Source: Pelagicoccus sp. SDUM812003 (GTDB lineage Bacteria > Verrucomicrobiota > Verrucomicrobiia > Opitutales > Opitutaceae). Taken from it: a DNA stretch of 64,000 nucleotides. The translations under genes and the position numbers were made by a program. Shown here in pieces: positions 7,019-24,497 of this stretch (the stretch's first letter is position 1; the number at the start of each line of letters is the position of its first letter). The stretch lies in contig NZ_JARXHY010000008.1 in NCBI RefSeq assembly GCF_031127815.1, forward strand, positions 1-64,000. Direction: 5' to 3'. The notes below the pieces were generated by a model. The model was not told the DNA's origin. It made no database searches and saw nothing but the letters and a program-made list of their open reading frames with translations.

Positions 7019-8779
7019 CTAGCTGGCCATCAGCTCGCTCACCGCGTAGATCTCCTTTAGCTCCTCAGCCGAATGCCGGCGATTGAAGGCGATGAAGGAC
7101 TCGTCCCCCTCTCGTAGCTCGAGGAAACGCTCAAGGGCGTTGGCCAGCAATGGCTTCACATCGAAGAACGGAACGGACTTGAAGACCTCCTTGGCGATCG
7201 CTTGCTCATCGTCGACACCACCACCAAAGACGATGTTGTATCCATCGACGCTTTCGTCATTCACCTTGACGCGGACCGCTTGTAGCCCGATGTCGCCGAC
7301 GTAGTGCTGAGCGCAGGAATGCGGGCATCCGGTCAAGTGGATGTTGATAGGCGCATCGAGCTGGAAACGCTCGCTCAGGTACTCGCCGAGCTCGACCGCG
7401 TTCGACTTCGTATCCGCCGACGCATACTTGCAACCGAAGCTCCCCGTGCAGGCGACTAGCCCGCCGCGTATCATGTCAGGCTGGCAACTGAATCCGACTC
7501 TCTCGATTTCAGACACCAGCGTATCCACGTTTTCGTTACGAACGTTCGGTATCAGAAGATTCTGCCAAACGGTCAGTCGAATCTCCCCGTTTCCGAAGCG
7601 ACGAGCGAGAGCGGCGATCGCCTTCATCTGATCCGGCAGCATCCGTCCGACTGGGATGCGAGCCCCCACGTAGCTCAGTCCCTCCTGGGATTGAGCATGG
7701 ACTCCGAGATGCCCATGACGGCGAATCGGCACGCGTTGCTGGCAGTTTTCCAAAGGCATTTTCACCAGTTCGAAATCGAGTTTCTTCTCGGTTTCCTGCA
7801 CGAACTTCTGGTCGCCCCAACTGTCGATCAGGTACTTCAAGCGGGCCTTCTTGCGATTGGTGCGGTCACCGTTTTCGATGAATACGCGGATCATCGCAGC
7901 CGCCACCGCAAGACACTGTTCCGGTGCGATGAGAATGCCGCAATCCTTGGCGAACTGCTTGTGACCGGTGATGCCCGCGAGCTGCACGCGAAAATAGACG
8001 CCTGGCTCCACGGCCTGACCTTCCCCCACGCGAACCGCGTAGAACGCGATATCGTTGGTATCGGCGCAGACGCTGATGGCCCCGCCACCGTCGAAGGAGA
8101 TGTTGAACTTGCGCGGCAGTCCGTAAAACTCGCGCGTATTCAGAATCAGGTGATGCATCGCCTTGGCGAGGGGGCGTACGTCGAACAGTTCGTCCGGATC
8201 GAATCCTGCGGTCGGCGAGCCGGTGATGTTTCGCAAGTTGTCCGCTCCCGCTCCGCGAGAGGTCAGCCCCAGATCGACCAGCTTCTCCAACACCTTGATG
8301 GCGTTGCGAGGCTGTATCTCGCGCAACTGAAAATTCGCCCGGGTCGTTATGTGGGCGTATCCGCCCGCCCAGTCCTCGGCCATTTCAGCCATGCCTTCCA
8401 ACTGATGGGCCTGCATCAAGCCTCCAGCGATGCGACAGCGCAGCATCAGGCTCTCCTGAGCCGGAGACACGTTGAACAGTCCGTAGTACTTGAAACGGAA
8501 CACGTCGGCGCCCTGAGGCAGCTCGTCCTTCGCCGCGCAAGCCGCGATGTCCTCATAGCAGTCCAGGCCATCCTTTTCATGTTTGATACGTTCCTCCTTG
8601 GAAAGCTCGTCCAAGGGAGTTCCATAAACGGTCTCCGCTTCAGCCGATGCGCTTTCCCCGGTGTAGGATCCGTCAGGCAGCTTGCCCAGAAACGGACTGA
8701 AGCCCCTTTGACTCGCTCCAGCGAAGAAACCGGATAGGTACTCCTTTTGTTCGGGGGTGAAAGGTAGATTAGAATTCAT
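7019..8779 (-). CDS. nirA: Siroheme nitrite reductase (NirA/sulfite reductase family)
   Basis: 586 residues of the nitrite/sulfite reductase hemoprotein family, with two ferredoxin-like halves. The [4Fe-4S]-siroheme ligands are visible as [11 protein letters not shown] and [13 protein letters not shown] near residues 440-495; [16 protein letters not shown] is the substrate/siroheme arginine-lysine region. The enzyme reduces nitrite to ammonium with six electrons in the cytoplasm. Plant and cyanobacterial NirA uses ferredoxin, but the adjacent CysJ-like gene suggests an NADPH-diflavin donor. Sulfite reductase activity cannot be excluded from sequence, but the nitrate reductase and transporter neighbours make nitrite the likely substrate. 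A sigma-54-like promoter lies about 92-110 bases upstream. Confidence 0.88.
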
Positions 8780-8816
8780 TTTCGTCTGAGGATTTTCGCG
8801 CCGATTTCGCAGGGCC

Positions 8817-8843
8817 CCGATGTCTGAAAACCGAGGCCTGAAA
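8817..8843 (-). promoter_or_regulatory. Direct repeat in nirA leader, shared in part with dmsBC
   Basis: Two 13-base copies, CCGATGTCTGAAA (8817-8829) and CCGAGGCCTGAAA (8831-8843), spaced 14 bases start to start, lie in the expected 5' UTR of nirA. A near copy, CCGAGGCCTAAAA, lies directly in front of the dmsBC gene (13182-13194). It could be an RNA- or DNA-level control site; function unknown. Confidence 0.4.
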
Positions 8844-8870
8844 CCCGCGCAATGGTTAGTGACTCCAACT

Positions 8871-8889
8871 TTAGCAGCCCGGATGCCAA
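8871..8889 (-). promoter_or_regulatory. Sigma-54-type promoter of nirA-cysJ
   Basis: On the minus strand the site reads TTGGCATCCGGGCTGCTAA. It has GG, exactly ten bases, then GC, the invariant -24/-12 arrangement of RpoN promoters (consensus YTGGCACG-N4-TTGCW). The start point would be near 8862, giving a leader of about 80 bases. Closely similar elements precede dmsBC-nasA, narK and nrtA. Confidence 0.7.
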
Positions 8890-9389
8890 GTACTCCTCAC
8901 GCCAAACCAATCCTATCCGCGCATTAGGCGTCCCATGCCTTTCGCACGAAGACCAAAGGTACGCTTTTACCTGAACTACAGATACTTACAAAACACATGA
9001 AAATTAGTCCTACGTTTCCATACTGCAAAAACGCTCCATTTTAAGCGAAAACTCGCCACGACGCCCCCGTCTTCAGTGACCATTTTTGCATGTATACAAA
9101 TAAAGTTCTTATCTTTATCTATCGATTTTATTCATGTTATCAAAACTGAGCATAAACCGCTAGGGAGAGCCCTGAAAGCTAGCCCGAAAAGCCCCTGCCG
9201 AATCCTGCAGATCGAAACAAGGCGCAGCCTTTTTTCCGCTGGCCGAAAACGGCCCTAGCCGTCCGTTTGCAGAAACGAGAGGGCCAAGCGAGCGCCGCCG
9301 GCGAAAAGCCGCTCATCCAACTCCAGGACCGCGACTCGGGCCCTGGGCTCCGCATCTTATGGGCTCGTCTTGAAGAAGGGACTGGCGTC
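8890..9389. other. 500-base non-coding stretch upstream of nirA
   Basis: No credible gene. It probably holds activator sites for the sigma-54-like nirA promoter. The clearest symmetry is an inverted repeat AGGTA-N6-TACCT at 8957-8972, about 70 bases upstream of the -24 element. The segment near 9050-9150 is AT-rich. Closer to nasA there are two small hairpins (GGCCG/CGGCC at about 9240-9255, and AAGGC/GCCTT followed by a T-run near 9220-9235), but I see no convincing terminator for nasA. Confidence 0.5.
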
Positions 9390-11597
9390 CTAACGAACGC
9401 TCAGGGCCACGGCGCAATACTTAAACGATGGCTGGCGAGAATGCGGGTCGACATCGGGCTTGGTCAGCCAGTTCGTTTCAGCGTAATGCATGGGCATGAA
9501 GACCTGGCCTGGCTGCACTGTCGGCGTCACAAACGCCTTCGCTTTCACCGATCCCCGACGCGAGGCGACCACGATCACCTCGCCCCCAACCACACCCATT
9601 GATCGGGCGTCGTCAGAGTTGATTTCCACGTACACATCTTTTGGGTACAGCTTTCGCAAAACATCGGACTTGGAGGTTCGCGTTTGGGTGTGCCATTGCG
9701 CCGAAGTCCCTCGCCCCGTCAAAAGGATGAATGGGTAGTCACGGTCAGGCTTCTCCGGCACTTCCTTCGGCGCATCGAATAAAAACCGCGCTTTGCCATT
9801 CGGGTGGTAGTAGCGACCATCGGCAAACAAGCTGCGATGCGTCGCCCCGTCTCGGTCCTCCGAGCGATACGGCCATTGCACACCACCCTTTTCATCCAGC
9901 ATAGCGTAGCTCTCGATACCGGAAATATCACACGGGCGGCCCTTGGTCAGCTGAGCCAAAATCTTGAATACGTTCTCTGGAGTATCCCACTTTCGGAACA
10001 TGTCTCCACAACCCCAATACTCCGCTAGGATCTTGAAGATGCTGAAATCCGCTAGGGCCAGCCCTGGCGCTTTGCGCACTTTTCGAGTTCGACCGATGCG
10101 CCGCTCCGAGTTGATAAACGTGCCCTCGCGCTCGCCCCACGCTGCAGCCGGCAATACCAGATCGGCCATCTGAGCAGTCTCGGTGCTGTGGTACATATCC
10201 TGCACCACCAGGAAGTCGAGCTTGCGCATCGCGTCGCGAAAACGCCCTTGTCCGATCCACGAATGAGCGGAGTTGGTGGCTACGATCCACAGTCCCTTGA
10301 TCTTCCCCGTTTCCACGCCTTCCACGATCTGATCGTAGGCCCAGCAATTCTCGTTCGGAATTTTGGATACATCGATCTGCAGGATGTCCGCGACCTTGCG
10401 GCGATGCTTGTCATTGAGAAAGTCATGCCCGCCCAGCAGACTGGTGGTATTGGAAAAGAGCCGCGAGCCCATGGCGTTGCATTGTCCCGTTATGGAGTTC
10501 GCTCCAGTTCCCGGACGCCCGATGTTTCCCGTCATCAGACAGATGTTGATCAGAGACTGAGCGAGCCGCACTCCTTCGTAACTTTGATTGACCCCCATGG
10601 TCCACCAAATGGATACGCGTTTTCCTTCCCCGATAGTACGGGCCAGGGTCTTGATGCTCTCCACCGACAACCCGCTCAGGGCCGACACCGATTCCAGATC
10701 GTAATCCAGCACGAACTCCGCAAACGCTTCGTAACCCTCGGTGTGCGCGGCCAAGTAGTCCTGGTCGATCCAGTCGTTGGCGATCAGCTCTCGAGCTACC
10801 GCATAAAAAAGGGCCAGGTCCGACTTTGGAGCCAGGGCGTAATGCTGGGTCGCCGCAACAGCAGTTTCCGTCTTGCGTGGATCGACCACGATGATCTCCG
10901 GATTGCGCCGATTGCGCATAACGCGCTGCCACATGATGGGATGAGCGATACAGGGATTCGCGCCCACGAAAACCAGCACATCCGACTCCTCGAAATCTTG
11001 ATAGGAATACGGCGGGGCGTCGAAACCAAAAGACTGCTTGTACGCGGTGACCGCGGTCGCCATGCACTGGCGCGTATTGCCATCTCCATGACGGATGCCC
11101 ATGCCGAACTTTCCGAGCGCCCCGAGAAAAGCGTGATCTTCGTTAGCGATCTGACCAGTCCCCAGCCATGCTAGGCTGTCTGGTCCATATTTCGACTGAA
11201 TGCCCTTGAACTTCTCCACGAAGGTCCGTGCCGCCTTGTCCCAAGAAACAGGATACAGCTCCCCGTCCTCACCACGCAACAGCGGCTCCGTTGCCCGGTC
11301 TGGAGCGTCGAGCACCCGCATCGCTTCCCAGCCTTTCGGGCAGGCCATGCCGATGTTCACCGGATAGGCCTTGTTCGCGCTCAGATTGATGCCTTCCCCG
11401 TCCTTGAGATGGACCTTCAGAGAGCAACCGGTGGCGCAGAATCCACAAACCGAGTCAACTGTGCCATTGGGCTTCAGCCGCTCCGGGACCTTCCCAAGGC
11501 CGAAACCTCCCGGGTTCAGCACCAGGTCCTTGGTGAGCGGACCGTTCCATTCTCTGAATACAGAGTTCTCTTTGGTTCTTTCTGGTATAAACGTCAT
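9390..11597 (-). CDS. nasA: Assimilatory molybdopterin nitrate reductase
   Basis: 735 residues of the NapA/NasA/NarB branch of the molybdopterin oxidoreductases. The N-terminal [4Fe-4S] motif is CGFCATGCS...ACPKGW (C-x2-C-x3-C-x~26-C). The putative molybdenum ligand is the Cys in [10 protein letters not shown], and the molydopterin-binding C-terminal domain carries the [15 protein letters not shown] motif. There is no Tat signal, so it is expected in the cytoplasm, where it reduces nitrate to nitrite. It is about the size of cyanobacterial NarB and lacks the extra C-terminal [2Fe-2S] domain of many NasA/NasC proteins. Its start overlaps the end of the DmsB-DmsC fusion by four bases (ATGA at 11594-11597), so the two are translationally coupled and probably one enzyme complex. 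Confidence 0.9.
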
Positions 11598-13171
11598 CCG
11601 TTGAGTCCTCCCGGCATCTTCGGGGCGTTGACCGCCTTGAAGTAGATAATGCGTTCCATGACCTCGCTAGCCACCACCCCCAAAAGAGCAACGAGGAAAA
11701 GCGCGGGTTGGTTGAGTGAAAACGAGAGGACCGGAACCAGAATCCCCACTCCGGCGCCCAAGGTCAGGCGAGATTTCCAGAGGGTGGAAAGAACCTTGGT
11801 AGCGATGCCTTCGCTTTGAAAATTATCCTGTATCGAGCGCACCTCCAAGACGAGCTTGCCAAATACGACGACAGAGAAAGCAAGGGAGAACAGCAGCGGA
11901 TCCTGCCCGCTCGCTAGAGCAATGCTCGCCAGTCCGCCAAGCATCACCGAACCATAGAACTTGCTTCCGGTGTAGCTCATCCTCCAAAAGCTTCGTTGCG
12001 TATCCACGTAGATGAATACAGACGTCATCACCCCTACCAGCCCCATCAGCGAGCTGGCCCACAGCGCTAACGGAACAAACGCGCCTGTCTCCACAACGGG
12101 AATAGACACCCCGAAGTAGTTTCCAACCGACATTGCGAAAGCGCTCGTCGACAAGGCCGAGACCACCCCTAGAGCGACTGCCTCGCGGCTGAGCCAAGAG
12201 TGCTTGAAGCCGACGAAAATCCGCCAGGCCTTGAGCGGTTGTCCCAGATGAAGGACGCTGCAGAGCAAGCCCGCATGGAGGATGGCCCAAAACGCCCCGA
12301 GAGCCAGCGTAGCGGCTCCCACCTCCAGCTGATTCCAAAGCGCCGCCAGGCCAAGGTGGCCGCCAATGCCGATCTGGCTGAGGGCAAGCAAACCGACCAA
12401 AGGCCAGTGCGTGTGCTGAGGACGCAGCACATGGGCGTCGCCAGCCACCATCCTTTTAGGCAGTTGCTTTTTGGATACGTAGCGCGTCGTCGGCTGCGTG
12501 TAAGCAGGTTCGGGAGCGTCCGGCAGAAAGCTTTCGGGATCGCGCGAGCGCTCGCTCGCCTCGCCCTTATCCACCGTAGTGATGGTGATAGCCCCATGGG
12601 GACAGGCTTGCACGCAGGCCGGAGCCTCTCCGGAGGACAGCCGCGAATGGCACATGTCGCACTTGCGCACGATGCCACGCTTCGAGCTGTACTTGGGCAC
12701 GTCGTAGGGACATTTCAATACGCAGTACTGGCAGCCGATGCACTGGTCATCGAGGTGCAGCACGATGCCGCTCACAGGGTCCTTTTCGTAGGCATTGACC
12801 GGACAACCGTTCAAGCAGGCTGGATCCACGCAGTGGTGACAGGCGGTCGTCACCGTCTGCTGGTAGGCGCCCGACTCGTTCTCGCCCAGCAAAAGCCCCA
12901 CGTCGCGCCAGGTCTCGTTTTCGTCCAGACCATTGAGACTGTGACAGGCCGTGACGCAGCCCTTGCAGCCCGAGCAGAGATCCAGGTTCACCTTAAACGC
13001 GTACTGCTCGCCCGGCTTCGGAGCGGAAAGCGGAATCAAGTCGCTGTGCTCCGGAGCGCCGGTCGACTCCGCTTCCTCCGCGAAGCGACCCACAGGAGTA
13101 TCAAGCGTCTGCTGCTCTTCCAGCAGCAGATCGATCAAAGTCTTGTCCTTTAGTTCGATGAGGTCGCTCAT
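11594..13171 (-). CDS. DmsB-DmsC fusion: four-cluster ferredoxin subunit joined to a quinol-oxidising membrane anchor
   Basis: 525 residues from the ATG at 13171. The N-terminal half (about 55-195) holds four Cys clusters of DmsB/NrfC type: [35 protein letters not shown] and CDMCH...CVQAC, enough for four [4Fe-4S] centres. After a linker come eight membrane segments resembling DmsC, the menaquinol-binding anchor of DMSO reductase. In E. coli these are separate subunits; here they form one polypeptide. The four-base overlap with nasA implies that quinol, not ferredoxin or NADH, feeds the nitrate reductase. A longer frame reaches 13213, but that would extend through the -12/-24 promoter. A sigma-54-like promoter ends only about 24 bases upstream. 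Confidence 0.85.
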
Positions 13172-13194
13172 ATCAAATCGTCCGAGGCCTAAAA

Positions 13195-13213
13195 CTAGCG
13201 GCATCCATGCCAC
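13195..13213 (-). promoter_or_regulatory. Sigma-54-type promoter of dmsBC-nasA
   Basis: Minus strand GTGGCATGGATGCCGCTAG: TGGCAT, then GC exactly ten bases after GG. Predicted start near 13187, so the leader is very short (about 15 bases). A palindrome CACCATGGTG at 13297-13306, some 85 bases further upstream, could be an activator site. It is the weakest of the four -12 boxes (CCGCT instead of TTGCT). Confidence 0.6.
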
Positions 13214-13401
13214 CGCACGCAGGCGCTGAAATTAGCACTTATCTATTTTGTAGGGTTTTCTATGAATAACTTTATCGTTATACGGTCGTTTCTGAACACC
13301 ATGGTGACTCCAAAACGTAATCAATCCACCCGGGGGCGTAGCGGCTCCGGGCCCATCGTTTTTCCGCAAGTCCCTGATCTCCAAACAGTCTATGTCCTGA
13401 C

Positions 13402-15135
13402 CTAATCCGAAAGCATCCAAATCCAGCTTGCCGCCAACGCGAGCGCCAGGATGCCGGCGGTCATCTTCCAGAACAGCGTCGGATTTCGTTCAATGAAGGG
13501 CCCGGCGTTCTCCGGAAGGAACTTCGGGTTCGGATGCTCAAGATCGTACTCGAATTCTGAATAGGATTCATAGCGAAGCTGAGGATTTATGGAAACCGCC
13601 TTGCGGATGGCCCCATCCATCCAAACCGGCACGTGGGAGTTGAACTGGGTGGCGGGCCGATAGAAGAGCACGGAAAAATCCCGGGCGCTGTGGCATCGCT
13701 CATAGCGCTCGCCGTATGGCAGCTTTCCGGTCAGCATCTCATAGACGATGACCCCGAGCGAAAACAGGTCGGAGCGACGGGTGGGCTTTCGTTCCAAAAA
13801 GTACTCCGGAGCGCTGTATCCGAGGGTGCCGAGAGCCTTCTCCCGCTCAAACGGGGCGTCGATCTCCTGCAGACCCGCCACGCGCGTGGATCCGTAGTCG
13901 ATGATGACCGCCCCGCGCGTCGGGTGCAGGATGACGTTGCTCGGTTTCAAATCCTGATGCAGCATTTCCATGCGGTGCATGGCTCGAAGCCCCTGCAGGA
14001 TCTGGCGGGCGATGCGGGCCACCTCGCGCACATCCGGCTTCGGATTGCGCTTCATCCACAGCTCCAGGGAATCCCCTTCGATGTACTCAAGAATTGTATA
14101 CAGAAAATCCTGACCCTTGGGAGGTACGATGGCCGCCGCCAGGTGACGATGCTTCAGCTTCCGCCCGATCCAGCCTTCCATCAGGAAGCGTTCGATATAG
14201 CTCGGATCTTCCTCGAAATTTACCGACGGCGTCTTCATCACCACCAATCGGTCGCTGCTGAGCTCTCGAGCGAGGTAGGTCTGGCTGCGGCTGGTCGACT
14301 GGATCTCTCGCTCGATCTCGAAGCCATCGATCTTCATGCCCGGAGCGAGATCGGGCGGAAATGGCAAGCGCCTGAAAATCCGCTCATGCTCTCTCCGACT
14401 CGCCGCTCCCACTCCCATGACCTCGAGCAGAATAGCGGAGCAATTGTCGTTGCTTCCCGCAGACAAGGCCGCTTGGCAGAGGGCTTCGCAGGCGAAATCG
14501 AAGGCGTTCGTCTCCGACTTCTCCACCGTTTCGCGCAAGGCGTTTTGCGTAACGAATCCATGGATACCATCGGTGGTGAGCAAAAAGCGATCCCCCGGCT
14601 GGACCCGAAAGCTACGCGTCTCGATCTCCACCCCAGTGTCCATGCCCATGGCGCGCGCCAGGCCGCCGCCGCCTTTGCCGTAGCGAAAGCAATGGTCCCG
14701 CGTGAGCTGCTCGAAGCTCTCGCCACGCAAGCGATAGATGCGCGTGTCGCCGACATGAAAGACATGCCCGCTCTCCCCTTTGAATACGAGTCCGCTGACC
14801 GTGGTCACGTAGCCGCGGCCGTCGAGAGAGTTGCTTTGGCCCAAACCGAAGAGCCAACGATTCAAGGATTGCAAGACCTTGAAGACGCAGGTCGCGACCG
14901 TCCAGGCCTCAGGCGCGTCGTAGTAGTCGTTGAGAAAGCCTTGCACGCAGATCTCCGCCGCCTGCTTGCCGGCCTCGGCCGAACTGACCCCGTCCGCGAT
15001 GACCACCGCCACGCCCTTGGTGAGCAGCTCCATGCCTTCTGGAGTCCGAAGGCCGAGGCAATCATCGTTCTGCTCGTTCGGCCCGGCATGGCTGAACATG
15101 CCGGCTTCGATCTTCAGGGCGGACTTGAGCTGCAT
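13402..15135 (-). CDS. Bifunctional PP2C phosphatase / Ser-Thr kinase with C-terminal membrane anchor
   Basis: 577 residues from the ATG at 15135. Residues about 1-240 form a PP2C phosphatase (IADGVSSAEAGK, GDTRIYRLRG, LTTDGIHGF, NDNCSAILLEV; the metal-binding Asp residues are present). Residues about 265-530 form a Hanks-type kinase: VMKTP lysine, HQDLKPSNVI catalytic loop (HRD changed to HQD), IDYGST in place of DFG, and GTLGYSAPE. A hydrophobic helix (about 555-575) ends the protein, so both enzymes probably face the cytoplasm at the membrane. A fused kinase/phosphatase of this type also sits between nirB and the nitrate transporter in Pseudomonas aeruginosa (PA1782, as I recall), so it belongs to the nitrate locus. 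Its target is unknown; transporters are plausible. Confidence 0.85.
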   Translation of the reverse strand: MQLKSALKIEAGMFSHAGPNEQNDDCLGLRTPEGMELLTKGVAVVIADGVSSAEAGKQAAEICVQGFLNDYYDAPEAWTVATCVFKVLQSLNRWLFGLGQSNSLDGRGYVTTVSGLVFKGESGHVFHVGDTRIYRLRGESFEQLTRDHCFRYGKGGGGLARAMGMDTGVEIETRSFRVQPGDRFLLTTDGIHGFVTQNALRETVEKSETNAFDFACEALCQAALSAGSNDNCSAILLEVMGVGAASRREHERIFRRLPFPPDLAPGMKIDGFEIEREIQSTSRSQTYLARELSSDRLVVMKTPSVNFEEDPSYIERFLMEGWIGRKLKHRHLAAAIVPPKGQDFLYTILEYIEGDSLELWMKRNPKPDVREVARIARQILQGLRAMHRMEMLHQDLKPSNVILHPTRGAVIIDYGSTRVAGLQEIDAPFEREKALGTLGYSAPEYFLERKPTRRSDLFSLGVIVYEMLTGKLPYGERYERCHSARDFSVLFYRPATQFNSHVPVWMDGAIRKAVSINPQLRYESYSEFEYDLEHPNPKFLPENAGPFIERNPTLFWKMTAGILALALAASWIWMLSD

Positions 15136-15189
15136 AGGACTTGGCGGGAAACGAGAAGTGAATGGCAAGGGGCGGCCCCTCTCAACGTC

Positions 15190-15222
15190 AAAAGCAGCGG
15201 CCGCCTTCGACGCCGCCGCTGC
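15190..15222 (-). terminator. Intrinsic terminator downstream of narK
   Basis: Stem GCAGCGGC/GCCGCTGC (15194-15201 with 15215-15222), 13-base loop; on the minus strand it is followed by TTTTGACG. It separates narK from the kinase-phosphatase gene. Confidence 0.6.
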
Positions 15223-15259
15223 CCTGACCTAAGGGAACAAACTACACTCTGAAAAAAGA

Positions 15260-16729
15260 CTATGCCACCTCGATGCGCTGCACCGTACCGTCGTCCAGCA
15301 CCTCCACGGTGTGGCCTTGCGGCTCGTCGAGGAAGTAGGAAGCGGCAAATGCCAAGGCGGAGGAAGCCCCGATCACCATGAAGAAGGTGGAGGCGTCCAC
15401 GAAACTATAGACGGTGAGGAAGCACACGGCGCCGACGTTTCCGTAGGCCCCGACCATGCCAGCGATCTGACCGGAAAGACGACGCTTCACCAGCGGCACG
15501 ATGGCGAAAACCGCGCCCTCGCCGGACTGCACGAAGAACGAACACAGCATGGTCGCCATCACCGCGAAGACGATGGGCCACGAACTGTTCACCATGCCCA
15601 TGACGAAGTAGCCCACCGCCAGGCCGCAGATGAGAATCATCATGGTGGCGCGGCGTCCGAACTTATCGGATACAAGCCCGCCGATCGGTCGAGCAAGCAG
15701 GTTCATCAACGCGAAACCGCCGCCGAAGAGGCCCGCCATTTGAGGCGACAATCCGAAGGTATCCATGAAGTACCCCGGCAGCATGGACACCACCGCCAGC
15801 TCCGAGCCGAAGGTCACGAAGTAGTTGACGTCGAGAATCGCCACTTGCTTGAAGTTGTAGCGCTGCTCCTCCTCCACCCCATCGCGGAGCATGTCCTTGT
15901 TGACCGAATAGATCGAGGCGACCTGCACCACGAACAAGGCCGCCAGAGCCAGGTAGATGCCGTAGGTGGCGCCTTGGGACAGCAAGTCGACTCCGGATGG
16001 AGAGAGCTTCCAGGCCAGCACCGCCAAGCAGGCGTACATGGGCACCGTCATGCCGATGAGGAAATAGAAGTCGCGCTTGCAGGTGACCTCGAGACCGCCG
16101 GACTTCTTGGGCTTGAAATACGTCGAGCCCTTGGGCGTGTTGCGGGCTTTGATGAAAAAGAAAACGCCATAGACCGCAGCGATCGCTCCGGTGGTGAGCA
16201 CCGCGTAGCGCCAGCCGTTTTCGCCTCCGTAAAAGAGCATCAAGCTAGGCAGGGTGAACGCCGCCGCCGCGGAGCCGAAGTTTCCCCAGCCACCGTATAT
16301 GCCTTCCGCCAAACCGACCGTCCTGGCGGGAAACCACTCCCCGATCATGCGTATGCCGATCACGAAGCCCGCTCCGATGAAGCCCATCATCAGACGGGCG
16401 AAGGCCAGCATCTCGTAGCTGCTAGCCATGGAGAAAAACAGGCAAAGCCCGCCCGCCGCCACCAGCAAACCGCTGTACACGTGCCGCGGCCCGAACTTGT
16501 CGACCAGCATGCCGATCACGATGCGCGAGGGAATGGTGAGGGCCACGTTCAGGATCAGCAACGCCTTCCATTGCGCCACCGACATCTCGAAGGTCGACAT
16601 GATGGCGTCGCGCAGCGGGGCGTGGCTGAACCACATCACGAAGGTCAGGAAAAACGCGAACCAGGTGATGTGGAGGGTGAAGATCCGAGGATCGGAAAAG
16701 TTGAATAGGTTGATTCTAGTCTGAGACAT
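15260..16729 (-). CDS. narK: NarK/NasA-type nitrate/nitrite transporter (MFS)
   Basis: 489 residues with about 12 membrane helices. The nitrate signature of the NNP family is visible twice, as [13 protein letters not shown] (helix 5) and [16 protein letters not shown] (helix 11). The conserved MFS motif appears as [15 protein letters not shown] after helix 2, and again in the second half as [10 protein letters not shown]. Such proteins move nitrate with protons or exchange nitrate for nitrite across the inner membrane. With an ABC nitrate importer next door this may be the lower-affinity importer, or a nitrite exporter; sequence alone does not decide. It has its own terminator and sigma-54-like promoter, so it is a separate unit. 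Confidence 0.9.
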
Positions 16730-16759
16730 TGGGAGAGCTTTTTTAGTCTGCTTCCCGTT

Positions 16760-16778
16760 TCAGCTACGCTCATGCCAA
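16760..16778 (-). promoter_or_regulatory. Sigma-54-type promoter of narK
   Basis: Minus strand TTGGCATGAGCGTAGCTGA, with GG-N10-GC spacing. The predicted start near 16752 gives a leader of about 23 bases before the narK ATG. Confidence 0.65.
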
Positions 16779-16948
16779 GCGCTCGCGATGCTCAAATTAA
16801 TCCATTTCAAATTTCTAAGAACTTTCCTAAATTTATTTCATACCTATCGTTTTTCCCAGCGTCGGCCGGCCTTTCATCGCCCCGCCTTCCACCCGCCACG
16901 AAAAAGCAGGAAGCCCGGCGCTCTCTCCATCGCCGCGACTCCCTGCTC

Positions 16949-16971
16949 AAAAATCAGCCCGCCGAGCGGGC
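16949..16971 (-). terminator. Probable terminator of the nrtABCD operon
   Basis: Short GC stem GCCCG/CGGGC (16957-16961 with 16967-16971) followed on the minus strand by TGATTTTTGAG. It lies 24 bases past the nrtD stop codon. The stem is only 5 bp, so termination may be partial. Confidence 0.5.
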
Positions 16972-16994
16972 CCCTAAGGCGCATCTCGTTTCGT

Positions 16995-17813
16995 CTAGAC
17001 CGCCTTGGCCTTCTTTCGGGCCTTCTTCTCCTGTTCGCAATCGTCGAGAAACTGCAGCAGACGGCGGCGATATTCGTAAAAGTCGGCCGTCTCCATGATC
17101 TCCTCGCGATCGCGGGGACGTTCGAAATGGATGTCCATCACCTCGCCGACCTTGGCGCCGGGTCCGTTGGTCATCATGCAGATCCGATCCGACATGTAGA
17201 CCGCCTCGTCCGGATCGTGCGTGATCATCATGGTGGTCAGCTTTTCGAAGTTCAGGATATTGAGAATCACGTCCTGCAGCTCCATGCGGGTCAGCGAGTC
17301 GAGGCGACCAAAGGGCTCGTCGAGCAGCAGCATCTTGGGACGCAGGGCGATGGCGCGAGCGATGCCCACACGCTGCTGCATGCCGCCCGACATCTCGCGA
17401 GGAAACTTGTGCATCGAGTCCTTCAAGCCGACGGCGCAAAGCGCGTACTCCACCATCTGCTGCTTCTCCGCCTTGGACGCGTCGGGAAACACCTGCTTCA
17501 CGCCCAGCATCACGTTCTGATAGGATGACATCCAAGGCAGCAGGCAAGGAGCCTGGAAGACCACCGCTCGGTCAGGGCCCGGTCCCGTGACTTCGCGCCC
17601 CGCCACCACAACCCCGCCGGACGTGATAGGGATCAAACCCGCCACCATGTTCAGCACCGTCGATTTGCCGCAACCGGAGTGGCCGATCACGCTGACCAGC
17701 TCGCCCTGCTTGACCAGCAGATTGAATCCGTCGACCACCTTTATGGCCTCGCCAAAGGGGTTCGGATAGGCCTTCACCACGTCGTAGAGCTCTACGTATC
17801 TATCTTCTAACAT
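16995..17813 (-). CDS. nrtD: Nitrate ABC transporter ATP-binding subunit, NrtD type
   Basis: 272 residues. Walker [11 protein letters not shown]-loop QAPCLLPW, signature [14 protein letters not shown], Walker B MLLLDEPF, and a normal switch histidine in MITHDPDEA. The C-terminus is basic ([10 protein letters not shown]). It is the last gene of the nrtABCD unit, 18 bases after nrtC, and pairs with it as a heterodimeric ATPase. Nitrate, nitrite and cyanate transporters share this family; the gene order and adjacent reductases point to nitrate/nitrite. Confidence 0.9.
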
Positions 17814-17831
17814 TTCTCAATTCCTCCGTAG

Positions 17832-18701
17832 TTATCGAACCACTACCGAGCGACGAGTCGCAGGCATGAAATCGTAGGGTTTGATGTCCGGCATCGGCAC
17901 GGTGTTGTCCACCTGCAGCTCCTTGGACTCCTTGTTCAGTCCCACCATGAAGCGGGTGACCGAATTCTTAAGCTTCATGAACTCCGGGTTCTTGTTCAGA
18001 TTGGCTCGATCGCGGGGACGCTCCATGGTCACCGGAAACTCCTTGGCCAGAGTGGCCCGCGGACCGATGGTCAAAGGCACGATGCGGTCCGCCATCAGCG
18101 TGGCTTCGTCCACGTCGTTGGTGATCATCACCACCGTGCGCTTGTCCTCCTCCCAGATGCGAATGATCTCGTCCTGCAGCACCGCTCGCGTCAAGGCGTC
18201 GAGAGCGCTCAACGGCTCGTCGAGCAGCAGCACTTCCGGCTGCATGGCCAAGGTGCGAGCCAGCGACACGCGCTGCCGCATGCCACCGGAAAGCTCGTGG
18301 GGCTTCTTCTCCAACGCCGGCGTCAAACTCACCATCTCCACATAGCGCTCCACGTGCTCCTTGGTCTGGGCCTTGGAGTAGTTGGGAAACACCTGCTTCA
18401 CCGCCAGCTCGATGTTTCCGAAGACCGAGAGCCAAGGAAGCAGCGAGTAGTTCTGAAACATGATGCCGAGACGCGGACCGGGCTTGTCGATCACCTTGCC
18501 GTGCAGCCTAACCTGCCCCTTGTCTGGCTGCTGCAATCCGGAGAGCAGCGACATCAAGGTGCTCTTTCCGCTACCGGAAAAACCGATGATGGCCACGAAT
18601 TCGTTTTCCTTCACCGATAGATTCACATCGCTCAACACCTCAGTTCGATTGGTCGGAGGTCCGAAGCCGATGGATACATTGTCCATTTCTAGATAAGCCA
18701 T
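17832..18701 (-). CDS. nrtC: Nitrate ABC transporter ATP-binding subunit, NrtC type without C-terminal sensor domain
   Basis: 289 residues. Walker [11 protein letters not shown]-loop QNYSLLPW, signature [14 protein letters not shown], Walker [13 protein letters not shown]. The switch histidine is replaced by Asn: the motif reads [10 protein letters not shown], where the companion NrtD has ITHDPDEA. That suggests one ATP site of the NrtC/NrtD pair is degenerate, as in other asymmetric ABC exporters and importers. Cyanobacterial NrtC carries an extra substrate-binding domain at its C-terminus that inhibits uptake; it is absent here, so that form of feedback is not possible through NrtC. It starts 47 bases after nrtB. 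Confidence 0.88.
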
Positions 18702-18748
18702 GCGTAACGCCTTTCTATTTCGGGTTATTTTTCTGGTATCCAGATTTC

Positions 18749-20377
18749 CTAGACAGTGGCGCCCTTGTCGTCAAAGGAGACGAAGCGCTGCAGCACGATC
18801 ATCATGCGATCGAGGAAGAACCCGATGATTCCCACCACGAAGCAGACCATGATGATGTTGGCGAAGGTCAGGGACGAGCCGTTCTGGTACTCATCCCAGA
18901 CGAACTTGCCCAAGCCGTCCGACGAGGACAGCGCTTCCGCCGCGATCAACACCATCCAACCGACGCCCAGCGAAATGCGCAACCCGGCGAAAACCAGCGG
19001 CAGAGCGGAGGGGATGACGATCTTGAACAGGCGATCCCAGAAGCCCAGACGCAGCACGCGGGCCACGTTGATGTGGTCGTTGTCGATGGAGGACACGCCC
19101 AGGGCCGTGTTGACTAGCGCCGGCCACACCGCGCACATGGCCACCGTGCACGCGGAGAAGATCAGCGCGGGATTCACCTCCAAGGAGGAGATGAAGGGAA
19201 GCGAGTTGAGAAAGTTAAACAGCGGGTGGTTCTCCGGATCCGGGAAGAACGCCCCTACTACGATTTGAAAGATCAATAGCCATACCACCGGCGAGACCGG
19301 CTTGAAGATGGAAATGATAGGCGTCATGCACGCCATGAAGATCTTGTTCAACCCGCACATGATTCCCACCGGGATAGCCACGAAAGCCGCCATGAAGAAT
19401 CCCACGAAAACGGTGAAGATGGAACGCTTGATCTGGTGATAGATGGTCACTGCGGACGCGTACTCCTGCCCCGCCAGGCGCTCGATGCTTTCCTCCGATC
19501 GCACCGCTCGCTTGGCTATGGACAGCGCCTCCTTGGCGGTCTCCGCCGCAGCGAGCTCGGCCAAATAAGCCTCTAGCTCGGCCTTCTCCTCGTCCAGCTT
19601 CACGTTGAGGTTGCGATCGTCGAGAAACTCGAGGCGCGTCTTGAGAAAGAAAAGCTTGTCCGCCAGGCTGTCGTACCGCTTGCGCGCGTCGTCCAGCGGC
19701 TTGTACTTGGCGCCGCGAATCTCATCGATCTGGGTCTTAAGCGCATTGAGCTCATCCCGCTCGGCGTCCGACGCCAGGGCATCCTGCCGAATCGCCTTGA
19801 TTAGAACGCTCTTGTCCGTACGGCCAGCGGCGACCTCCTCCGAAATGCTGGCGATCTCAGCATCCCGAGCTTTGGCAGCATCTCTGTATTCAGATCTCAA
19901 CTCGTCGTAGCGGGATTCGATCGGAGCGATGCGCGTCTCGATGCGGGACGCCTTTTCGGCCTCCTTCTCGGCAACCAACGCTTTCGCATCCTCCACTTCA
20001 TTTTCCAGCATGGCGTAGTCCGTCGAAACCTGCTGAAAAACGCGCTGGCGCTGCTCCCCGCTCAGCAGAAAGTCCTGTCGCTTCACCTTCTCGCGGTCCG
20101 CTATGGTATCGTTGATCTTCACCGAATCCCAAACGACATCCGGCGTAGGAACCTCGCCCGACTTGGTCTTATGCCTCGGGCCGAGCCAGTCCCAGAACCA
20201 GAGACAGGCCAACACGAAAAAGATAGGGATCACCAGGTACTTGAGGATGCTCTGAAGCTGCTTTTGCGGCTCTTCGCCGAAAGCGAGCCGTATCACCGGA
20301 TCGAATACCGTAAAGCCGCTCACATCGAGCGCCTTGAGGATTTTATACTTAACTTTGTCCTTAGCCGATTCAGCCAT
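18749..20377 (-). CDS. nrtB: Nitrate ABC transporter permease with a long coiled-coil insertion
   Basis: 542 residues, about twice the usual 270-300 for NrtB/SsuC-type permeases. Helix 1 is at about 46-66. A segment of about 215 residues (about 90-305) follows, very rich in Glu, Lys, Ala and Arg with heptad spacing. It has no membrane helix and is predicted to be coiled coil. The normal permease core resumes at [20 protein letters not shown] with five further helices, including the cytoplasmic EAA-like loop [23 protein letters not shown] that contacts the ATPases. The insertion falls between helix 1 and the core, probably on the periplasmic side where NrtA docks. The reading frame is continuous across it and base composition is unchanged, so this is not an assembly artefact or a recent insertion. 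Confidence 0.88.
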
Positions 20378-20430
20378 GGTCGTAACGGGTCGAGAGGTTA
20401 GTTTCGAATCTGAGTAAATGAACCTCGAAG

Positions 20431-20483
20431 GGAGGCGATCGGCTCAGTCCGCGAGCGGCGATCGCCTCCTTAAAAGGCCTTTT
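20431..20483 (-). other. Strong hairpin between nrtA and nrtB
   Basis: An 11-bp perfect stem GGAGGCGATCG/CGATCGCCTCC (20431-20441 with 20459-20469), extended inside by GCTC/GAGC, is next to the palindrome AAAAGGCCTTTT (20472-20483). It lies in the 120-base spacer after nrtA. No T-run follows on the minus strand, so it more likely protects the nrtA mRNA 3' end or attenuates nrtBCD, giving excess binding protein over permease. Confidence 0.6.
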
Positions 20484-20497
20484 CAAAAAAGGATTTG

Positions 20498-21844
20498 CTA
20501 GTCCTTGTTTCCGATCGTGTGAGCGTTCAGGTAGCCGATCGGATCCTTGGGGTCATAGGTGATCCCGTCGATGAACTCGTCGGTCGCCGGCTTGTATCCA
20601 TCGGTCTCCCAAGGGATGTCCGCCTCCTCGATGTAGCCTTCTTCAAGAAGGTGGCGAGCCGCTTCCAAATACACGTCAGGGCGATAGACCTTCTTCGCGG
20701 TTTCGTGGTACCAGTCAGCCGACTTCGGCTCGGTGATCTGGCCCCAGCGGCGCATCTGCGTGAGGAACCAGATTCCGTCGCTGTACCATGGATACGTGCT
20801 GTGGTACTTGAAGAACACATTGAAGTCCGGCATCTCGCGCTTGTCGGTCTTCTGGAAGTAGAAGTAGCCGGTCATGGAGTTCTTGATCACGTCGAAGTCC
20901 GCCCCGACATAGTTGGGCTGGGAGAGGATACGAACCGCCTCTTCGCGATTGACCAGCGTCCCGTCTTCATCCGTTTCGTCGAGCCATTTGCCGGCGCGTA
21001 TCAAAGCCTTAACGACAGCGATATGCGTATTCGGATTCTCTTCGGCCCACTTCGCGGTCACGCCGAACACCTTTTCCGGGTTGTTCTTCCAAATGTCGTA
21101 GTTGGTGGTCACCGGCACGCCAATGCCCTTGGCCACCGCCTGCTGGTTCCAAGGCTCGCCCACGCAGTAGCCGCTGATGTTTCCGCTCTCGAGCGTGGCC
21201 GGCATTTGAGGCGGGGGCGTCACGGAAAGTTCGACCTGGGCGTTGGTGAAACCCTTCTTGTCCTCCGCGGTGTAGAAACCGGGATGAATGCCAGCGGCCG
21301 CCAGCCAGTAGCGGATCTCGTAGTTATGAGTGGATACAGGGAAAACCATTCCCATCTGCAGTTTCTCGCCCGCATCGATCTTCTCCTCGACGATCGGCTT
21401 GAGGGCGTCCGCCGTGATGGGATGAGGCGGCGTATCGGTATCCAAAGCCGGATCGTTGTACTGCATTTCCTCCCAGATGGAGTTCGAAACCGTGATACCG
21501 TTTCCGTTCAGGTCCAAAGTGTAGGCCGTGATGATGTGGGCCTGGGTGCCAAACCCAATGGTCGCCGCGATGGGCTGGCCGGAGAGCATATGGGCTCCGT
21601 CAAGCTCGCCGTTGATCACGTTATCCAAGAGCTGCTTCCAGTTCGGCTGGGCGATCACCTCCACCTGAAGGCCCTCTTCCTCGAAGAAGCCCTTCTCCTT
21701 GGCGATCACAAGCGGGGCGCAGTCGGTCAGCTTGATGAAGCCAAATTTCAGCTCGTCCTTTTCCAGGTCCAGTTGCTCCGCAGTAGCGGAGGAAACAGCC
21801 AGCGTGAGGCTCGCTGCGGTGATAAGTCTTCTAAGGTTTTTCAT
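20498..21844 (-). CDS. nrtA: Nitrate-binding periplasmic protein NrtA
   Basis: 448 residues with a Sec signal peptide (about 1-22, [11 protein letters not shown]). No lipobox Cys is present, so it is likely soluble in the periplasm. The NrtA/CmpA fold is recognisable: [23 protein letters not shown] at the start, [11 protein letters not shown], and [16 protein letters not shown], the loops that contact the anion. It captures nitrate (or nitrite) and delivers it to NrtBCD. It is first in the nrtABCD unit, under a sigma-54-like promoter about 120 bases upstream. Bicarbonate-binding CmpA is the close alternative, but the locus argues for nitrate. Confidence 0.9.
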
Positions 21845-22327
21845 ACTCGATTCAGTTCGGGATTTCAGGTCGTCTCCAGTTAGCCAACAGATGTATCGAT
21901 TTTCTCATGACAGGGTTATCCCTGCCAAATCTAGAAAACCATGGGATTTGTTGATACCTGCTATTAGCGACCCATGCGCCAAAACGCGTCGAAATGGACA
22001 AATACACCCGCTCCCGAACACCGTTATACTGAAATCCTCCCCACGCTTTTTCCTTACATTCAACAGCTTACACGAAACTCTCCCTCCTATTCGCATTACA
22101 AATAATTTTACATATACACCGCTTTCATGAATTTCATTCATTCCTACAAGAATTGCGTTCCATGGAAGCTCGTTAAGTTTAAGCGGGTGGCGAAAACGAA
22201 GCATGAACGATTTTACGCGCTTGAGATCCGGCGGGTCGCTCCAGCAGGTCGCAATGCCTCAGAGCTAAGGGTTGGACTCTAACGAAGGTCGCCGAGCCGA
22301 GACGCGCCAATCTGGGGCGAGCTTCGC
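21845..22327. other. nrtA leader and upstream region
   Basis: Non-coding stretch between nrtA and the nasS terminator. Besides the sigma-54-like promoter at 21964-21982 it holds the small hairpin CAGGG-TTAT-CCCTG (about 21906-21919) inside the transcribed nrtA leader, and an AT-rich segment near 22090-22130. The sequence GAACACC occurs here and also upstream of dmsBC, which may be part of an activator site. No gene is visible. Confidence 0.5.
21964..21982 (-). promoter_or_regulatory. Sigma-54-type promoter of nrtABCD
   Basis: Minus strand TTGGCGCATGGGTCGCTAA. The GG-N10-GC spacing is exact, and the flanking TT...TAA matches the nirA promoter (TTGGC-N9-GCTAA in both). Predicted start near 21955, leader about 110 bases. 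Confidence 0.65.
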
Positions 22328-22358
22328 AAAAAAGCCCCCTGCGACGATCGCAGGGGGC
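22328..22358 (-). terminator. Intrinsic terminator of the nasS-like gene
   Basis: Perfect 11-bp stem GCCCCCTGCGA/TCGCAGGGGGC (22334-22344 with 22348-22358), 3-base loop; on the minus strand it is followed by six T. It lies 48 bases past the stop codon. Confidence 0.85.
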
Positions 22359-22406
22359 CGTTTCAGACCTGGCAGATAAAAAGGGATAGAGGCGCTTTGC
22401 GAAACG

Positions 22407-23492
22407 TCAGGCGGGCACGAAGCGAGCTCGAGAGAGAGCCTTCTCGTAGAGATCCTCGCGGAAAACGGTCGAAGCCCGATCCACGGCGGCAGCGTCGATC
22501 TGGCCGCAGTTCTCCACCAGGCGGCTGACGATCCATTCGCGATCCGCGGCGCTGGGTCGATTCGAATCCTGGGCGTAGAAGCGCATAAAGGCCGGACTGC
22601 TTTCCACCCTCCCCAATCCGTAGTTGAATTGTGGCGACAAGCATTGCTCGATCAGCTCGGCAGGGCAATTGATGCGTTTGCGATCGCTGATCATTTCCGA
22701 AATCTCGGAGCGATGGGTCGGATCGTCGCAAAGGGCGCAGGCTTCGATCAATGCCGACATCAAAGCGATGTGCTCGTCCGGATGCTCCTCAGCGAAACGC
22801 TCCCGCACCATCAGCACCTTTTCCGGATGCCCAGGGCTGAGGTCCACGGAATTGACCGGCGACCAGCCGATCTTCTGCGAAATGGCGAGGCTGCCCCACG
22901 GCTCTCCGGCGCAGAACCCGTCGATGGTGCCGGCATGGAGATTTCGACACATCTGCGTCGGAGGAAGCGTCACCAGCTCCACATCTTCCTCCGGATCGAT
23001 GCCTGCCTCGATCAGCCACTCGCGCAGGTGGAAATTGTGAGAGGAACACGCGTAGACCGTGGCGAACTTGTACTTTCGAAACGCCTTGCGGTTGTCCACG
23101 TCCATCTTGAGCGTCTCCTTGTTCTTGACCCCGCGACGACGCAGCTCCTCGGAAAGCACGATGGCGTTTCCGCCTCGGCTGAGCACCAAGCCAGTGATGC
23201 AGGAAACCGCTGGGGCTCCCATGCCAAAGGAACTGGCGAACGGCAGGGTGCAAAGGGCGTGCGCCGCCTCGAGCTCGCCGAAATTGATCTTCTCGCGAAT
23301 CGTCGCCCAACCCACTTCGCGACTCAACGCCACGTTCAGACCCTTCTTTTCGAAAAGACCATATTCGGCTGCGACGATCAAAGGAGCCGCGTCCACCAGA
23401 CCGATGTAGCCTAGCCGCGTCACCGAGCGACGATTGAAGACAGAGGGAGAGATTCTGGCATCAGAAATTCTAGAGGGTTGCACGCCATTCAT
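22407..23492 (-). CDS. nasS: NasS-like cytoplasmic nitrate/nitrite sensor (NrtA/CmpA fold, no signal peptide)
   Basis: 361 residues from the ATG at 23492; an in-frame TTG at 23546 would add 18 basic residues. The fold is that of NrtA (LGYIGLVDAAPLIVAAEYGLFEKKG, TIDGFCAGEPWGSLAISQKIG) but the protein has no signal peptide, so it should stay in the cytoplasm. NasS proteins are exactly such cytoplasmic NrtA relatives that hold the ANTAR antiterminator NasT until nitrate binds. No NasT gene is adjacent; instead a LysR regulator is divergently transcribed. It may work with a NasT encoded elsewhere, or be a sensor partner of the LysR protein. A periplasmic binding protein is unlikely because of the N-terminus. 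Confidence 0.75.
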   Translation of the reverse strand: MNGVQPSRISDARISPSVFNRRSVTRLGYIGLVDAAPLIVAAEYGLFEKKGLNVALSREVGWATIREKINFGELEAAHALCTLPFASSFGMGAPAVSCITGLVLSRGGNAIVLSEELRRRGVKNKETLKMDVDNRKAFRKYKFATVYACSSHNFHLREWLIEAGIDPEEDVELVTLPPTQMCRNLHAGTIDGFCAGEPWGSLAISQKIGWSPVNSVDLSPGHPEKVLMVRERFAEEHPDEHIALMSALIEACALCDDPTHRSEISEMISDRKRINCPAELIEQCLSPQFNYGLGRVESSPAFMRFYAQDSNRPSAADREWIVSRLVENCGQIDAAAVDRASTVFREDLYEKALSRARFVPA

Positions 23493-23585
23493 CCTGCGCC
23501 GTGCAGCCGCCCGCGTGCCAAAAGAGTTAAAAATCTTGAAATACAAAATATTCTAATCCAAATACTCTTTTCCGTAATATTTTTC
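23493..23585. promoter_or_regulatory. Shared AT-rich control region of nasS-like and lysR genes
   Basis: The short spacer between divergent start codons is markedly AT-rich and holds the palindromic words AAAATATT (about 23544-23551) and AATATTTT (about 23575-23582), about 23 bases apart. This is the usual place for LysR self-regulation. No clear -35/-10 pair stands out. Confidence 0.45.
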
Positions 23586-24497
23586 ATGAGGGATGATATC
23601 ATAGACAGCCGTCAGCTCCTGGCATTCAAGACTCTGGCCGAAACGGGGAGCTTCACCTTGGCCGCCAAGCAGCTCAATCTTACGCAATCCGCGGTGAGCC
23701 ACTCCATCAAGGCGCTCGAAGACGATCTCGGCTGCGCCTTGATCAATCGCTTGGGTCGCAAGATCCACCTGACCGAGGCGGGTGACATCTTCCTCGCCGC
23801 CGCCGAGCGCATCCACCAACGCATGCATCGGGTGCGTTCGGAGCTGGAGGCGCTGAGCCGCTGGGGAGCGGGGCGTCTGCGCATCGGGGCAGGCACCACC
23901 GCTTGCCAGTACATCCTGCCCACCGTCATTCGCGAGTTCCGCCAAACCTTTCCCGACTGCCAGCTCTCCATTTCGCCAAACGACGCCAAGGAACTGATGG
24001 ATGAATTGCGGGGAAACGAGATCGATCTCGCCTTCACCCTCGCCCCGCTGTCCGACGACGATATCGAATGCCAAACGGTATTCGAAGACACCCTACAGTT
24101 CGCCGTGGCCCCATCCCATCCTTGGGCCAATCGCAAGGTGGCTCCGGGCTCGGAGATCGACGAGCAAACCTTCGTCACCTACAGCAAGCGCAGCCTTACC
24201 TTCGAAAGCATTCGCCGACACTTTCGCAACGAAGGGCACACCTTTTCCAAGGTTATCGAGCTGGGCAGCATGGAGGCCATCAAGGAGCTGGTGAAAATCG
24301 GCATCGGCGTCGGTATCATCGCTCCATGGGTAACGCAGAAGGAAGCCCACGAAGGCAGCATCTTCCTGCTCTCCCCCAGCCGCAAGGCCCTCAAGCGCTC
24401 CTGGGGCGTCTGCTACGTGAAAGGCCGACGCCTCTCCCTGATGGAGGAAACCTTCATCGGTCTGTGCGAAAGCGCCTGCGATTGCCTGGAACAATAG
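23586..24497 (+). CDS. LysR-family transcriptional regulator (CysB/CbbR-like)
   Basis: 303 residues from the ATG at 23586. The upstream extension back to 23478 would run through the control region and is not used. The winged HTH spans about residues 8-65 (LLAFKTLAETGSFTLAAKQLNLTQSAVSHSIKALEDDLG), followed by a two-lobe effector-binding domain of about 210 residues. Position, divergent from the nasS-like gene at the end of the nitrate island, suggests a nitrogen-related effector such as nitrite or N-acetylserine, but this is inference. Whether it controls the island together with sigma-54 is unknown. Confidence 0.85.
   Translation: MRDDIIDSRQLLAFKTLAETGSFTLAAKQLNLTQSAVSHSIKALEDDLGCALINRLGRKIHLTEAGDIFLAAAERIHQRMHRVRSELEALSRWGAGRLRIGAGTTACQYILPTVIREFRQTFPDCQLSISPNDAKELMDELRGNEIDLAFTLAPLSDDDIECQTVFEDTLQFAVAPSHPWANRKVAPGSEIDEQTFVTYSKRSLTFESIRRHFRNEGHTFSKVIELGSMEAIKELVKIGIGVGIIAPWVTQKEAHEGSIFLLSPSRKALKRSWGVCYVKGRRLSLMEETFIGLCESACDCLEQ

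Follow-up and report, generated by a model that had tools for sequence, protein, structure and literature searches.

The 64,000-nucleotide window analysed here (positions 1 to 64,000 of contig NZ_JARXHY010000008.1, contig C8 of the 5.75-megabase genome of Pelagicoccus sp. SDUM812003) carries an island of nitrate assimilation genes. Our subject is the set of sigma-54-type (-24/-12) promoter elements that precede these genes, together with an inverted repeat, the dyad ATGAA-N5-TTCAT, found further upstream. Genes of the genome were called with a simple codon-usage caller, and the closest relatives of the island's NrtA are those of Pelagicoccus mobilis (91%) and Verrucomicrobiae bacterium DG1235 (89%). 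The island comprises the following genes.

7019 to 8779, minus strand: nirA, ferredoxin-type nitrite reductase (NirA family), above the PRK09567 cut-off
9390 to 11597, minus strand: nasA, molybdopterin nitrate reductase, scoring below the NCBI equivalog cut-offs
11594 to 13171, minus strand: dmsBC, ferredoxin fused to a DmsC-type anchor
15260 to 16729, minus strand: narK, nitrate/nitrite transporter of the major facilitator superfamily (306.8 bits against a cut-off of 311.7)
16995 to 21844, minus strand: nrtABCD, nitrate ATP-binding cassette transporter
22407 to 23492, minus strand: nasS-like relative of nrtA
23586 to 24497, plus strand: lysR, LysR-type regulator, divergent from nasS

The first-pass annotation of this DNA had proposed that four minus-strand -24/-12 elements unite the island into an RpoN regulon that senses nitrogen status. 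All four 19-mers were found, letter for letter, where it had placed them, and each keeps TGGC and the GG-N10-GC spacing. A fifth site, absent from its list of four, precedes the nasS-like gene. Taking the predicted transcription start to be 12 nucleotides after the C of the -12 element, and counting leaders from there, we obtained the following set.

8871 to 8889, minus strand: nirA site TTGGCATCCGGGCTGCTAA, predicted start near 8862, leader of 83 nucleotides
13195 to 13213, minus strand: dmsBC-nasA site, predicted start near 13186, leader of 15 nucleotides
16760 to 16778, minus strand: narK site, predicted start near 16751, leader of 22 nucleotides
21964 to 21982, minus strand: nrtABCD site, predicted start near 21955, leader of 111 nucleotides
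23503 to 23521, minus strand: fifth site TTGGCACGCGGGCGGCTGC, before the nasS-like gene, predicted start near 23494, leader of about 2 nucleotides

When all intergenic DNA of the window was scanned, seven GG-N10-GC matches scored at least 6/8, and five of these are the start regions of the nitrate island; spacings of 9 or 11 bases gave three and one intergenic matches, respectively. The shorter pattern TGGC-N9-GC had 75 matches in the window where 54 were expected.

We determined whether the sites recur using eight genomes of Pelagicoccus and its kin (the genus set), each denominator being the number of genomes whose examined stretches contained the gene. A -24/-12 site precedes nrtA in 8/8, narK in 6/6, dmsBC in 6/6, nirA in 7/8 and nasS in 8/8, so that 35 of the 36 pooled upstream regions match at the sigma-54 spacing. 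In the sole miss, genome G063, nirA and the end of nasA share one base, an operon-like arrangement. Spacings one or two bases off (N5, N6, N8 and N9) matched in 0/36 regions each, with five matches at N4 and three at N10, and none of 28 regions upstream of operon-internal genes (nasA, the gene for a kinase fused to a PP2C phosphatase, nrtD and nrtB) had a site. Because the scan pattern was derived from the genus sites, the identity inside them (98-100%) is partly forced and was not used as evidence; the spacer is 62-93% identical and the downstream flank 47-57%. The evidence for promoters lies instead in matches at the orthologous place, with none at spacings one or two bases off. Genus leaders measure 104-116 nucleotides for nrtA, 22-48 for narK and 15-21 for dmsBC (6/6 genomes), the last bearing out, as a prediction, the short dmsBC leader of the first-pass annotation. 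Since the nasS ATG falls 1-3 nucleotides past the predicted start in 8/8 genomes, the nasS messenger RNA (mRNA) is predicted to be nearly leaderless; outside the genus family, the gene begins between -3 and +7 relative to the predicted transcript start in the seven cases, of 11, with an assigned start.

Beyond the genus the sites recur most clearly before nrtA. Among 80 wider nrtA loci (79 scanned; two from the genus), 37 had a site scoring at least 6/8 at the sigma-54 spacing, and spacings of 8, 9, 11 and 12 gave 3, 4, 2 and 0. The signal was weaker before nirA (6/25 at the right spacing against 1, 2, 1 and 2 at the others); narK had a site in 5/5 cases, two of them from the genus, and dmsBC in 0/8. 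The alternative nas operons of genomes G089 and G127 offered only weak TGGCCCC-type candidates, none of them before nirB.

Genome-wide frequency told a different story from position. The pattern TTGGCAY-N7-GCT matched 31 times, against 28 for its reverse; this lack of enrichment counts against a promoter reading, and we dropped bare-motif counts as evidence. In the 30 matches whose context was assessed, however, 13 were intergenic and at most 250 nucleotides upstream of a gene on the same strand, compared with 3/28 control matches (p = 0.008), and 10/27 remained in such a context when the island's own three matches were set aside (p = 0.03). Taken by itself, the motif is not convincing. Genes behind the motif include flgD, fliO, a flgE/F/G-like gene, and genes for a TonB protein, a TonB receptor plug protein and mannosyl-phosphoglycerate synthase. 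Two of the five amtB genes have, respectively, an 8/8 site and a 6/8 candidate, and the gene following the former reads as PII by eye. No -24/-12 site precedes nifH or the other three amtB genes, which weighs against a simple whole-nitrogen regulon. A search for rpoN, which the first-pass annotation had named as a check, found one gene (204 bits), and 19 activator-domain matches, two of them weak, were present in the genome. That the elements are chance matches in GC-rich DNA is, in our view, barely credible: the bare pattern is no commoner than its control, yet the elements recur across genus and phylum, and the 35/36 matches at orthologous positions refute chance. They exceed it because of position and conservation, not because of pattern frequency. 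With fixed-spacing recurrence, a single rpoN, many activator-domain genes, and further copies of the motif upstream of flagellar genes and of one amtB gene, the assignment of the four elements, and of the fifth, as a set of RpoN promoters is well supported.

Alignment of the genus upstream regions brought out several conserved blocks, of which the clearest was the LysR/MetR-like dyad ATGAA-N5-TTCAT. Its positions in the window, and those of a second block, are given below as distances from the predicted starts.

22127 to 22141, minus strand: nrtA upstream dyad ATGAATGAAATTCAT, T-N11-A type, centre at -179
13262 to 13276, minus strand: dmsBC dyad, decayed, centre at -83; three mismatches here, none or one in the other five genomes
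16827 to 16841, minus strand: narK half dyad, centre at -83, ATGAA kept in 6/6
23573 to 23587, minus strand: nasS half dyad, centre at -86, overlapping the lysR start codon; two or three mismatches in the genus
22067 to 22071, minus strand: second block before nrtA (TTTGTAAGT-N4-TTGATT type), at -116
8985 to 8989, minus strand: second block before nirA, at -127 (genus range -125 to -127)

The nrtA dyad is exact in seven of the eight genus genomes and has one mismatch in the eighth. Allowing two mismatches, a dyad precedes nrtA in 8/8, dmsBC in 5/6, narK in 3/6 (at varying positions), nasS in 5/8 and nirA in 2/8, compared with shuffle means of 2.1, 1.3, 1.0, 0.7 and 1.8, and internal genes had none (0/28). 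Its centre is at -178/-179 before nrtA (8/8) and -83 before dmsBC (6/6), and the weak nasS version is at -85/-86 (8/8); at nrtA the distance from dyad to start stays constant while the leader varies from 104 to 116 nucleotides. The T-N11-A form typical of LysR sites is present at nrtA and dmsBC, as half-sites only at narK and nasS, and not at nirA. Seven exact copies exist in the genome, and dyads with two mismatches lie elsewhere before amtB (at -80) and the mannosyl-phosphoglycerate synthase gene (at -66). The second block, around GTAAG, recurs with single-base variants at -115/-116 in 7/8 nrtA regions and at -125 to -127 in 7/7 nirA regions.

An alternative is that the -24/-12 elements are sites of another regulator and that sigma-70 promoters lie nearby. 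LysR-type boxes usually serve sigma-70 promoters, with the box at about -65. The extended sigma-54 consensus is YTGGCAYG-N4-TTGCW; compared with it, the -24 half of the elements is strong, and the T at -14 is missing from all genus nitrate sites except those of nirA. Sigma-70-like sites are nevertheless scarce in positions 8700-23800: two were found where 4.9 would be expected, the first within the nrtA leader and the second in the start region of lysR, and that scan found none near nirA, dmsBC or narK. In addition, the sigma-54 spacing is kept in 35/36 regions, the flagellar and amtB sites act as positive controls for the motif, and the dyad lies at -83 and not at about -65. We regard a sigma-70 explanation as quite improbable.

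To follow the dyad beyond the genus, we searched 387 genomes for a composite of the dyad, 27-53 bases, and TGGC-N9-GC, which matched in 58 genomes; the backward control gave six matches in total. Because this control differs in composition and 32 matches fell outside the class, we used spacing as an inner control. There were 35 distinct dyads within the class (same family, order or class), of which 34 were examined, the one excluded being the reverse reading of the window's nrtA dyad. The gap from the dyad to the best-scoring site was 48-50 bases in 25 of the 34. Under a first-match rule it was 48-50 bases in 23/34 in-class cases, against 1/27 outside the class (27 measured of 29 retrievable, from the 32). 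The module precedes nrt, nirA, dmsBC or nasS genes in 24/34 cases: nasS in 11, nrtA in six, an nrtA-like gene in one, nrtB in one, nirA in one, a formate/nitrite transporter gene before nirA in two, and dmsBC in two. Of the other ten, four precede Alginate_exp porin genes (three of which neighbour lysR or nasS), one precedes amtB and five precede other genes. In ten of the 11 nasS cases the start of a divergent lysR coincides with the dyad or lies no more than a few bases from it. The window genome's own two composite matches are not such promoters, the nrtA dyad being spaced at -179 and the others decayed. The island is probably part of a broader verrucomicrobial nitrate regulon that has a further DNA element, spaced from the promoter. 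The porin genes of the Alginate_exp type that follow the module (loci L304, L321, L324 and L328) possibly encode nitrate porins.

The connection of the dyad to nitrate genes leads us to favour, as rather probable, a model in which sigma-54 acts with a nitrate-specific dyad-binding regulator, probably the divergently encoded LysR. RNA polymerase carrying sigma-54 would read nirA, dmsBC-nasA, narK, nrtABCD and nasS from the -24/-12 promoters, as their conservation suggests. A second, nitrate-specific regulator would bind ATGAA-N5-TTCAT upstream at a near-fixed distance and set the response; its best candidate is the LysR-type product of the gene divergent from nasS, and the NasS-like protein would act as nitrate sensor. 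Transcription with sigma-54 depends on an AAA+ activator, so the ATPase step must come from one of the enhancer-binding proteins encoded in this genome, possibly the NtrC-like protein of contig C15. Expression of the locus would then require both nitrogen shortage and the presence of nitrate or nitrite. Three observations favour LysR as the binder: the divergent lysR that begins at or near the dyad in ten of the 11 nasS cases; the similar box TGAA-N5-TTCA bound by MetR (PMC13393422); and the distribution of dyads with at most one mismatch, which 19/42 nrtA regions from outside the Planctomycetota have but 0/34 from the Planctomycetota, although some of the latter carry sigma-54-like sites (76 of the 80 loci could be used). 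More tentatively, and with somewhat less than even confidence, we extend this to the class Verrucomicrobiia: a LysR protein, often coupled to NasS (NasS as sensor, NasT replaced), would bind the dyad in register with sigma-54 promoters, thus acting from enhancer-type positions, and gate nitrate uptake, nitrate reduction and its own sensor gene, whose mRNA would be near-leaderless.

Several observations weigh against this model. Within the window the dyad is perfect at nrtA alone; it is decayed at dmsBC, narK and nasS, and nirA has no dyad beyond the shuffle level. LysR proteins lack an ATPase, normally partner sigma-70 and cannot alone drive sigma-54, and the geometry of the dyad is also compatible with a Fis-type enhancer-binding protein. 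The association of lysR with the dyad in the 54 loci whose 5' flank was complete (p = 0.01) is owed to the Planctomycetota; in the 29 remaining loci lysR accompanies 10/15 dyad-positive and 10/14 dyad-negative cases (p = 1). Dyads are also present in genomes without a clear NasS. Indeed, NasS as an obligatory partner was rejected: of 12 Verrucomicrobiota genomes, one (G154) has a clear NasS (41%), and the other 11, several of them incomplete, gave NrtA-level matches only, up to 35%; in 11 of the 12 a nitrate gene is preceded by a dyad with at most one mismatch.

These points bear on a rival account, a pure RpoN regulon in which a conventional enhancer-binding protein, of the NtrC-like or another kind, binds the dyad and loops from -83 or -179, and LysR is a mere neighbour. 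The dyad does lie at an enhancer-like position, its spacing is constant within each promoter type, activator genes are many, and its half-site spacing equals that of the NtrC box. Across lineages its positions differ by approximately whole helix turns (-40, -62, -73, -83 and -179), with a Rayleigh R of 0.78 at 10.5 base pairs over 20 related, non-independent promoters. This phasing is suggestive only, as the six distance classes alone give p ~0.13 and -110 is out of phase. Moreover, the dyad goes with nitrate genes, with none of the genome's eight other sigma-54-type promoters carrying one within one mismatch; no GAFTGA-type activator motif was found in any of the 80 nrtA loci; and the dyad touches the lysR start. 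We consider the rival account a serious, if minority, possibility. With regard to the nitrogen-status control through NtrC that the first-pass annotation had envisaged, our comparison, which covered 10 activators of the 19 domain matches, did not show it: the best NtrC-like protein scored 501.6 bits, under the NCBI threshold for NtrC of 558.6. NtrC enhancers are of the type TGCACC-N5-GGTGCA, and visual inspection of the aligned upstream regions, of which no matrix scan was made, revealed no such canonical box; the conserved element is instead the LysR-type dyad. A nitrogen-status input is likely, and the tie between the dyad and nitrate genes points to a nitrate-specific arm that the annotation had not seen.

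Sigma-54 control of nitrate assimilation is textbook knowledge in Proteobacteria. The nas systems of Klebsiella and Paracoccus, as outlined in one paper, share the scheme suggested here, with Ntr nitrogen control and a second, nitrate-specific layer (PMC5424462). That layer is there an RNA antiterminator, NasR or NasT, whereas here it would be a DNA dyad upstream of the promoter; no ANTAR protein of the NasT type was matched in a genome search that had no working positive control. An NrtA-like sensor of the NasS type is common to this locus and the NasS-NasT pair, with a divergent lysR here in place of nasT. Cyanobacterial NtcB differs in its setting, an NtcA background with no known sigma-54, and the LysR-type protein MetR acts on methionine genes and, in Shewanella, on respiratory genes, and is not known to work with sigma-54. 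The likeness to NtcB is that of a LysR protein needed for nitrate/nitrite induction (PMC5424462), and the MetR box, given in an excerpt as TGAA-N5-TTCA, resembles the dyad (PMC13393422). In Methylacidiphilum a LysR-type cbbR adjoins nitrate transport and reductase genes, and a link to nitrate has been suggested for strain V4; the passages on cbbR in that account describe no sigma-54 site or dyad (PMC3404531). A 2025 survey reports, in its relevant sections, sigma-54 control of nitrate-transporter genes in Pseudomonadota, while Opitutia show a smaller enrichment that concerns some genes of nitrogen fixation (PMC12316311). Among the literature matches listed, none linked sigma-54, nitrate assimilation and Verrucomicrobia together, and none described a dyad-plus-sigma-54 nitrate circuit.

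Other features of the locus and its relatives deserve mention. The NasS-like protein matched CmpC/NrtC-type regulatory chains and NrtA among solved structures, and no signal peptide was seen by eye at its start; it is probably cytoplasmic and a probable nitrate/nitrite sensor. The fused DmsB-DmsC-type membrane anchor (11594-13171) is coupled to the nitrate reductase gene, which suggests that nasA receives electrons from quinol, not ferredoxin. The nrtB product (18749-20377) has about 330 residues N-terminal of its permease domain (Pfam match 334-531 of 542). Adjoining narK is one further gene, present in 6/8 genus genomes:

13402 to 15168: PP2C phosphatase fused to a Ser/Thr kinase

Two genus members have another nitrate reductase operon, which includes genes identified by eye as nirBD-like (L122 2522-10289; L123 9543-17355), and a window-type dmsBC-nasA was not found in their examined stretches. 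Elsewhere in the genome, a NifA-like activator gene (L191 2827-5656; 495 bits against a cut-off of 529) adjoins an apparent nifH, identified by eye, which raises the possibility of nitrogen fixation in this organism.

Sigma-54 control of nitrate assimilation is now predicted in many Verrucomicrobiia, and with its spaced dyad the arrangement is a testable two-signal promoter. If a LysR protein does act there, it would widen the range of regulators able to work at sigma-54 promoters.

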